A stretch of DNA of 48,100 nt from Microcaldota archaeon. Lineage in GTDB: Archaea > Micrarchaeota > Micrarchaeia > Anstonellales > Anstonellaceae. Location of the stretch: the NCBI GenBank assembly GCA_026396415.1, contig JAPLWX010000033.1, positions 1 through 48,100 of the forward strand, written 5' to 3'. A model generated the notes under the pieces. It did no database searches, was not told where the DNA came from, and saw nothing but the letters and a program-made list of their open reading frames with translations. The position numbers and the translations under genes are program-made. Numbering within the stretch: position 1 is the stretch's first letter; every line of letters starts with the position of its first letter. Positions 136 through 689 of this stretch are shown here, piece by piece.

Positions 136-149
136 TAAAAACGTCTTAT
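136..149 (-). terminator. T-run downstream of tRNA-Asp
   Basis: On the minus strand the bases right after tRNA-Asp end in a run of five T, an archaeal-type terminator. The group II intron begins immediately beyond it. Confidence 0.4.
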
Positions 150-221
150 CGCCCCGACCGGGATTCGAACCCGGGTCACCAGATCGACAATCTGGGATGC
201 TAACCACTACACCATCGAGGC
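150..221 (-). tRNA. tRNA-Asp (GTC)
   Basis: A 72-base cloverleaf without intron. The 7-bp acceptor pairs GCCTCGA with TCGGGGC, the anticodon loop is TTGTCGA (GTC, Asp), and the T-loop TTCGAAT lies on a CCGGG/CCCGG stem. The discriminator is G150. It is the last gene of a minus-strand unit that starts with tRNA-Tyr and passes through a hairpin array. Confidence 0.95.
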
Positions 222-425
222 ACTTTCAGATGCGAGGCATCTGGAAGGACAGCGGAACCACAGTTCCGCTGGATCGCAAACTGCGCAGCAGTTTGGGGGA
301 CAGTCGAGCGCAGCTCGACTGGACGGACAATTTGTGCTGCGGCGCAAATTGGACAAAACAGGCGAACGGCGACCCGCTCGCCTGGATCGGCAAATCCACG
401 AGGATTTGGCGCGCGCTTCACCCCT
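222..425 (-). repeat. Array of seven dissimilar hairpins between tRNA-Tyr and tRNA-Asp
   Basis: Seven short inverted repeats follow each other with almost no gap. Examples of their arms are CAGATGC/GCATCTG, AGCGGAAC/GTTCCGCT, CAAACTGC/GCAGTTTG, AGTCGAGC/GCTCGACT and CCAAATCC/GGATTTGG. Stem sequences are unrelated, but the short linkers between them are mostly GGAC or GGAT, and loops are 3-4 bases (GCA, CACA, ACGA); one has a longer loop. The array lies between two co-oriented tRNAs, so it would be transcribed as part of their precursor. There is no convincing ORF. This is not a CRISPR array: neither repeat nor spacer is constant. Confidence 0.8.
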
Positions 426-448: not shown

Positions 449-689
449 TCCCGCCAGTGTGATCTGTTCAACCCCTTCTCTTGCTTTTCCGTGAACGCTT
501 CGCACTTTTTGCGCCTTCGCAAAAAGGCGCATCTTTTTCGCCGAGGCGAAAAAGTTCGTTGCGAGCGTACCCATCTGGAGCGAGCAAAAGGGTTCTTGAA
601 CACACAACATCTTGATGACTGCCAGCACAATCGCCGACGGCCGTTGTTTTTCTACAGCCAAGCACTCTACCAGGTTGAGTTATGGCGGG
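449..689 (-). tRNA. tRNA-Tyr (GTA) with two introns
   Basis: The acceptor arms 689-683 and 456-450 pair perfectly (CCCGCCA/TGGCGGG), with discriminator A449. The anticodon loop begins CTGTAG (GTA, Tyr). A 35-base intron (651-617) lies at the canonical site after position 37, and TCAAG (615-611) closes the stem. The T-stem GTGTG (605-601) and CACAC (461-457) are separated by 139 bases: the T-loop starts TTCAAG, is interrupted, and ends with T462. A second intron of about 132 bases (594-463) is therefore inferred at or near position 59/60, a site known for some archaeal tRNA introns. The second junction does not form a strict bulge-helix-bulge, so its exact ends are uncertain. Confidence 0.85.
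463..594 (-). other. Second intron of tRNA-Tyr, in the T-loop, made of hairpins
   Basis: The insert opens with AACCCTTT and closes with AAGGGGTT, which pair and bring the two tRNA halves together. Inside are two near-identical-looking hairpins (CTTTTTCGCC.. and CTTTTTGCG..; plus-strand 513-534 and 537-558) in tandem, enclosed by a weaker outer pairing. Their style matches the intergenic hairpin modules at 870-1080. It appears to be a tRNA intron enlarged by a hairpin module. Boundaries may shift by one base (595-464). Confidence 0.65.

Follow-up and report, generated by a model that had tools for sequence, protein, structure and literature searches.

A tRNA-Tyr gene with two introns in a Microcaldota archaeon, one of them probably a copy of a small mobile hairpin element

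Results

The 48,100-nt stretch analysed here (the window) comprises positions 1 to 48,100 of contig JAPLWX010000033.1 from a Microcaldota archaeon (assembly GCA_026396415.1). It includes a tRNA-Tyr(GUA) gene with two introns, one at the canonical position 37/38 and the other in the T-loop, followed by its conserved downstream neighbour, tRNA-Asp(GUC), which is intronless here (Table 1). The T-loop intron is the subject of this work. As described below, it very probably represents one copy of a mobile element that is small and non-autonomous, and it is probably spliced out, like the 37/38 intron, by an epsilon2-type endonuclease from the transcript of a single-copy gene.

The original prediction, made from the nucleotide sequence, was that a 139-base insert starting with TTCAAG and ending with T splits the T-stem GTGTG/CACAC of a tRNA-Tyr that has two introns. 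Intron mapping bore out the split T-stem and placed the insert between the exons ...GTTCAA and ATCACAC. The insert is real, but the 139 bases include exon bases of the T-loop and the intron proper has 132 nt; its position was corrected from 59/60 to 58/59, with an ambiguity of 1–2 nt. The unspliced gene was detected neither by ARAGORN nor by Rfam. When the 132 nt were taken out, ARAGORN called tRNA-Tyr(gta) with a 35-nt intron in the anticodon loop, and when both introns were taken out in silico a perfect 73-nt cloverleaf was obtained. This predicted product matches at 73/73 bases that of the orthologue in genome G014 (locus L036), which has the 37/38 intron and no T-loop intron. Removal of the T-loop intron is thus predicted to restore a standard tRNA, as for an archaeal bulge-helix-bulge (BHB) tRNA intron.

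Comparison with the orthologues in 11 relatives also supports the two-intron structure. Four of them (L034, L036, L037 and L041) have no insert in the T-loop and read TTCAAATCACAC. The other seven (L035, L038, L039, L040, L042, L043 and L111) have an insert at the same site, and the sequence on its 3′ side is AT-CACAC or AT-CACGC. These inserts vary in length and are mostly unrelated in sequence, except that of L111, which is related to the intron in the window. The original prediction named another intact tRNA-Tyr in the genome, with no spliced product from this one, as the finding that would speak against it; no second tRNA-Tyr was found in the assembly, which is 92% complete. The incomplete assembly and the location of the gene near a contig end would accommodate a pseudogene broken by the element, the functional copy being absent from the assembled contigs. 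However, all stems are intact, as are the anticodon and the spliced sequence, which match those of a relative exactly, and the same T-loop site is filled in most relatives, in which the pattern search likewise detected no second copy, making this explanation extremely unlikely.

Table 1. Features of the tRNA-Tyr locus in the window
Feature	Position	Strand	Basis
tRNA-Tyr(GUA) gene with two introns (C1-G72, G37; position 73 = A downstream)	450..689	-	ARAGORN on spliced sequence, mature 73-nt cloverleaf; orthologues in 11 relatives
Canonical 37/38 intron, 35 nt	617..651	-	Spliced ARAGORN call; homologous intron in L036, L039, L040 and others
T-loop intron (58/59), 132 nt, probable mobile-family copy	464..595	-	BHB register; post-splicing ARAGORN call; blastn; covariance model R1, 33.7 bits
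5′ arm of BHB intron helix, AACCCTTT	587..594	-	8-bp inner helix
3′ arm of BHB intron helix, AAGGGGTT	470..477	-	8-bp inner helix
Exon side of 4-bp central helix, GTTC	598..601	-	BHB register
Intron side of 4-bp central helix, GAAC	466..469	-	BHB register
Left half of conserved element core, GAACCCTTTTGCTCGCTCCAGATGGGTACGCTCGCAA	559..595	-	blastn; copy comparison
Right half of core, GAAGCGTTCACGGAAAA	485..501	-	blastn (486–500); covariance model; copy comparison
Sub-family hairpin 1, CTTTTTCGCCTCGGCGAAAAAG	533..554	-	Fold; common to L104, L106, L108
Sub-family hairpin 2, CTTTTTGCGAAGGCGCAAAAAG	505..526	-	Fold; same position in L104, L106, L108
tRNA-Asp(GUC), conserved downstream neighbour of tRNA-Tyr	149..222	-	Intronless here; element copy in tRNA-Asp of genome G016

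The splice sites of the T-loop intron read GTGT-GTTC-AA/G-AACCCTTT ... AAGGGGTT-GAAC-AG/ATC-ACAC (slashes mark the exon-intron junctions). The complementary ends, already recognized in the original prediction, pair as an 8-bp intron helix exactly where a BHB needs one, and the exon GUUC pairs with GAAC in a 4-bp central helix, with the 5′ cut at AA/G. The BHB check that had been proposed therefore gave both helices, though in a relaxed form. The predicted folding energy of the region is -98.2 kcal/mol (z -5.1), and 0/200 shuffles reached so low a value. No Rfam match to a group I or group II catalytic core was found within the T-loop intron; a group II intron match at 60–135 of the window is separate from it. 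The search for the type of splicing endonuclease, also proposed beforehand, detected a single open reading frame (ORF) of 435 aa in the genome, residues 37–435 of which match the ARMAN-2 epsilon2 endonuclease (4fz2, 9w2k; E 1.5e-126). By sequence the enzyme is a three-unit epsilon2, ARMAN-2-like endonuclease of the permissive type. Endonucleases of this type tolerate relaxed motifs and noncanonical intron positions (PMC4033280, PMC12397907).

The left half of the T-loop intron is 97% identical (blastn) to a repeat found in many other places. In G016, which belongs to a different genus, the left part of the intron (GAACCCTTTTGCTCGCTCCAGATGGG.ACGCTCGCAA) and its right part (GCGTTCACGGAAAA) are found again, both in the 37/38 intron of tRNA-Tyr and in tRNA-Asp. 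The family core has about 54 nt (nRACCCTTTT...AAAAGCGtYnACGGAAAA), and its insert-free form is the hairpin nRAC-C-CUUUU...AAAAG-C-GUYn, which includes a C/C mismatch and is followed by ACGGAAAA. Within the genus and family, a 69-nt query gave strong copies in at least eight genomes, mostly several per genome, and the core is about 90–98% identical across different tRNAs, positions and genera. The genome of the window has nine covariance model hits and about 10 copies. Copies were found with the model in 22 of the 84 genomes of the order (E<=0.01) and in 29 of the 301 of the phylum (E<=1e-5), all of the latter in the same class. Records with the core pattern are named Candidatus Micrarchaeota or archaeon, e.g., LFW-35. 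The pattern had no match among IMG/VR contigs, and viral carriage of the element was rejected.

The two internal hairpins described in the original prediction are real and sit between the two halves of the core. They had been considered of the intergenic type, but they are more than that. The same two-hairpin block is found in copies of G016 located in tRNA-Leu (L104), in another tRNA (L106) and outside tRNA genes (L108), and a related block is present in the orthologous T-loop intron of genome G001 (L111); therefore, the hairpins travel with the element as a sub-family. As for hairpins of the neighbourhood, the spacer between tRNA-Tyr and tRNA-Asp (225–420) is a palindromic hairpin array with arms of about 9–10 bp and linkers TCC, GTCC or ATCCA. 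Similar arrays are found in the same spacer at L040 and L043, and similar hairpins occur inside the T-loops of tRNA-Val 3′ halves at L076.

In the structural alignment, built on insert-free copies, the covariation score was 0.202 compared to 0.064 in shuffles (0/500) for 23 copies, the rows of which are related so that the significance is approximate, and the basal pair of the hairpin occurs as GC, CG, UA or AU. These compensatory changes, together with the class-wide strict conservation of CCCTTTT/AAAAGCG and ACGGAAAA, could be explained if the core hairpin were a functional RNA or a protein-binding site under selection (a splicing or maturation signal, or a small RNA derived from circular introns) instead of a parasite. 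We consider this improbable: orthologous tRNAs lack the element, the number of copies ranges from 0 to 11 within one family, and there are intergenic and tandem copies. A known RNA family was rejected, as the element has no Rfam match.

Copies of the family occupy position 37/38, the D-loop and the T-loop of many tRNAs. The hosts in the genome of the window are tRNA-Tyr (T-loop); tRNA-Gln, tRNA-Leu (two genes), tRNA-Ala (two genes) and tRNA-Glu at 37/38; a Val-like D-loop fragment; and a C/D sRNA, whose relatives L229, L230 and L234 keep both guides and have no insert. Relatives add tRNA-Ile, Arg, Asp, Gly, Pro and others, 23S rRNA (L185; L218, by eye), and locations between protein genes or at their ends. 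Two copies lie within one tRNA at L110 and at L214, and in the intergenic DNA of L219 (G296, C123) four copies are arranged in tandem, repeating every 50 nt. Host assignments beyond the automatic BHB audit were read by eye. In this audit a copy passed when a cut no more than a few bases from the element gave a 4-bp central helix with extra outer or inner pairs and ARAGORN called a tRNA across the junction. It was passed by 29 of 76 copies, compared to 1–4 of 76 when the cut was shifted by 14–30 bases. The failures include non-tRNA copies and tRNAs with further introns, and the copy in the window passes only if a second intron is allowed.

A transposable element is expected to form dispersed repeats and to be polymorphic, filling some orthologous sites and missing from others, and both were found in the sequence comparisons. 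Direct repeats of 11–52 nt adjoin the left end of the element in four of 12 non-tRNA copies (L095, L103, L109 and L163; at most 1/100 shuffles as high for each, p<=0.01), and two further non-tRNA copies have weak ones. The site orthologous to L095 is empty in G016 and has a single copy of the repeat, which supports a target-site duplication. Two sister genomes have independent insertions in the same gene, L103 in one and L163 in the other; both lie close to its start but at different codons, and the gene start is repeated at each. The gene codes for a thiamine pyrophosphate-binding enzyme, the beta subunit of a 2-oxoacid:ferredoxin oxidoreductase as judged by its neighbours and sequence. The direct repeats, the empty site and these two insertions are strong signs that the element inserted as a unit. 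Splicing of the copies in the oxidoreductase mRNA was discarded: one possible BHB, examined by eye, would shift the frame, and the copies look like 5′ insertions with an intact copy of the gene downstream. At L103 and L163 the repeated upstream gene start is an open frame that continues across the element and ends 4 nt short of the true start codon, possibly permitting translational coupling.

An immobile, vertically inherited noncanonical BHB intron, resembling others through convergent selection for BHB-compatible ends, would agree with the fact that the T-loop site of tRNA-Tyr holds some insert, of unrelated sequence, in most relatives. Such an intron is not expected to share a core nearly identical between tRNAs, positions and genera well past the BHB bases, nor to have copies in intergenic DNA, where a BHB is unneeded. 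The direct-repeat copies outside RNA genes and the empty site also disfavour this explanation, which is very unlikely.

Other insertions and repeats were observed. T-loop introns were considered rare in the original prediction; they are not so in this lineage, as tRNA-Ala, tRNA-Leu and tRNA-Glu of the same genome also have them (read by eye). A second recurring type of T-loop intron (AAGGGGCTCCGCCCCTTAG...CCCAAACCCC) is found in tRNA-Ala, tRNA-Glu and tRNA-Tyr at L161, L173, L040 and L094, and a third (GGCTGGCGCC...CTGTCAATCCC) at L194, L112, L042, L079 and L081. Both may be further families of mobile introns. A tRNA-Val cluster lies at 430–1010 of L076. Its tRNA-Val(TAC) is intact and has an intron in the D-loop; the cluster also includes degenerate 5′ halves, of which one carries a copy of the element, and the tandemly repeated 3′ halves with T-loop hairpins. 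Finally, contigs C7 and C41 of the genome begin with an identical 141-nt sequence (1–141 of the window and of L077) that includes a group II intron domain (Rfam RF00029), and each of these starts adjoins a tRNA gene (Asp and Leu, respectively).

Discussion

The results are best explained by the following mechanism. An element consisting of a hairpin of about 54 nt that ends in ACGGAAAA, with an apical loop that accommodates extra hairpins (two in the window copy), would land in sense orientation in a tRNA, rRNA or C/D RNA, within a loop. There, the base of the hairpin, or a 3′ repeat complementary to the 5′ end of the element, would become the intron helix of a BHB, while a few nucleotides at the 3′ end of the element would pair with the exon. 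Since the landed element would form the BHB, the insertion would be removed from the RNA and would be nearly neutral. We infer movement in the form of DNA or cDNA, and the fit to the BHB was presumably selected after insertion. A derivation of the three bases left of CCC from the target was considered and is unsupported at the tRNA-Tyr T-loop, where the empty site reads TTCAA/AT and the filled one TTCAAGAACCC.

Several observations weigh against this mechanism. The T-loop BHB is classed as relaxed because its 3′ bulge has 5 nt, and splicing of the pre-tRNA-Tyr is deduced from structure and enzyme content. Many tRNA copies fail the automatic BHB audit, often owing to a further intron. Direct repeats were detected at only about 4–6 of the 12 non-tRNA copies tested, and none adjoins the element on both sides in the tRNA copies, which may have arisen by another route such as gene conversion between introns. 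The bases adjacent to the 5′ exon and the 3′ complement vary among copies; therefore, the exact mobile unit is not fixed. No transposase or reverse transcriptase common to all copy-rich genomes was found. Neither reverse transcriptase (RVT_1, PF00078) nor Y1 transposase (Y1_Tnp, PF01797) was detected in G013 and G014, which have 6–7 copies and are 78% and 89% complete, respectively, and both enzymes were rejected as required mobilisers. The varying lengths of the direct repeats are also unusual for a DNA transposase.

The intergenic copies are consistent with direct insertion and duplication, and intron-intron conversion or reverse splicing may account for those in tRNAs. In another version, exchange between tRNA genes, through gene conversion or homologous recombination, would have spread the whole family, or reverse splicing of intron RNA followed by recombination of the cDNA would have done so, and the intergenic copies would be secondary debris. 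A conversion or recombination route has been loosely proposed for the introns of Thermoproteales, circular forms of archaeal BHB introns are known (PMC12558985), and within the order the majority of copies lie in tRNA genes at sites compatible with an intron, are sense-oriented and have no adjoining target duplication. On the other hand, the exons around different copies have no obvious shared homology on which conversion could act, rRNA and a C/D sRNA are among the hosts, repeats adjoin the left end of several intergenic copies, and reverse transcriptase genes were not found in G013 and G014. We regard this version as possible but unlikely, and favour insertion of a mobile element.

Short hairpins that are dispersed in genomes are known in other systems. 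REP/BIME-like and IS200/IS605-derived hairpins are short and non-autonomous, have an internal mismatch, are dispersed and can form tandem arrays. The element is similar to them in its short mismatched hairpin, its dispersal and its tandem array. It differs from IS200/IS605 in the lack of a detected Y1 transposase in G013 and G014 and in its copies with direct repeats, which IS200/IS605 insertion does not make.

Among tRNA introns, the closest precedent is that of Thermoproteales, whose tRNA introns transpose by an unknown mechanism (Fujishima et al. 2010, as described in PMC4033280 and PMC4090602). As far as those descriptions go, in both systems nearly the same intron is found in different tRNAs, at canonical as well as noncanonical positions. 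By the same descriptions, the Micrarchaeota family is set apart by its phylum, its hairpin core with the ACGGAAAA tail and internal hairpin inserts, and its copies in rRNA, C/D sRNA and intergenic DNA with direct repeats. Introns in the T-arm are known in several archaea (PMC4090602, PMC12397907). With the noncanonical BHB introns that are substrates of epsilon2 (ARMAN-2) or (alpha beta)2 endonucleases, the intron in the window shares a relaxed T-arm BHB, the presence of several introns per tRNA and the three-unit endonuclease (PMC12397907, PMC4033280), but it belongs to a dispersed repeat family. We place it among the BHB tRNA introns and regard its family as a new variant among tRNA introns that transpose. 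The family, its conserved core and its non-tRNA copies appear to be undescribed in the literature searched, in which subscription papers were only partly covered.

The element can also be compared to introners, the mobile spliceosomal introns of eukaryotes (PMC11782384), which are likewise transposable sequences that make ready introns in many genes. Unlike them, it has about 50 nt, its hosts are mostly stable RNAs, and its splicing is predicted to depend on proteins (endonuclease and ligase) and not on the spliceosome. These findings led us to propose an archaeal "introner", a hairpin of about 54 nt that would insert as DNA or cDNA with target-site duplication, provide a ready-made BHB intron in tRNA, rRNA and C/D RNA loops throughout the class, and be the source of many noncanonical tRNA introns. 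We consider the arguments for and against this broader proposal evenly balanced.

The spread of archaeal tRNA introns is an open question, to which the Micrarchaeota family contributes a searchable core, empty and filled sites, and copies outside RNA genes with direct repeats. It also offers a nearly complete genome, G014 (six contigs), in which to seek the mobilising enzyme. The standard tRNA finder misses genes of this kind, and therefore the tRNA sets of these genomes are likely under-counted. If the proposal is true, the disruption of tRNA genes in archaea would be linked with the introners of eukaryotes.
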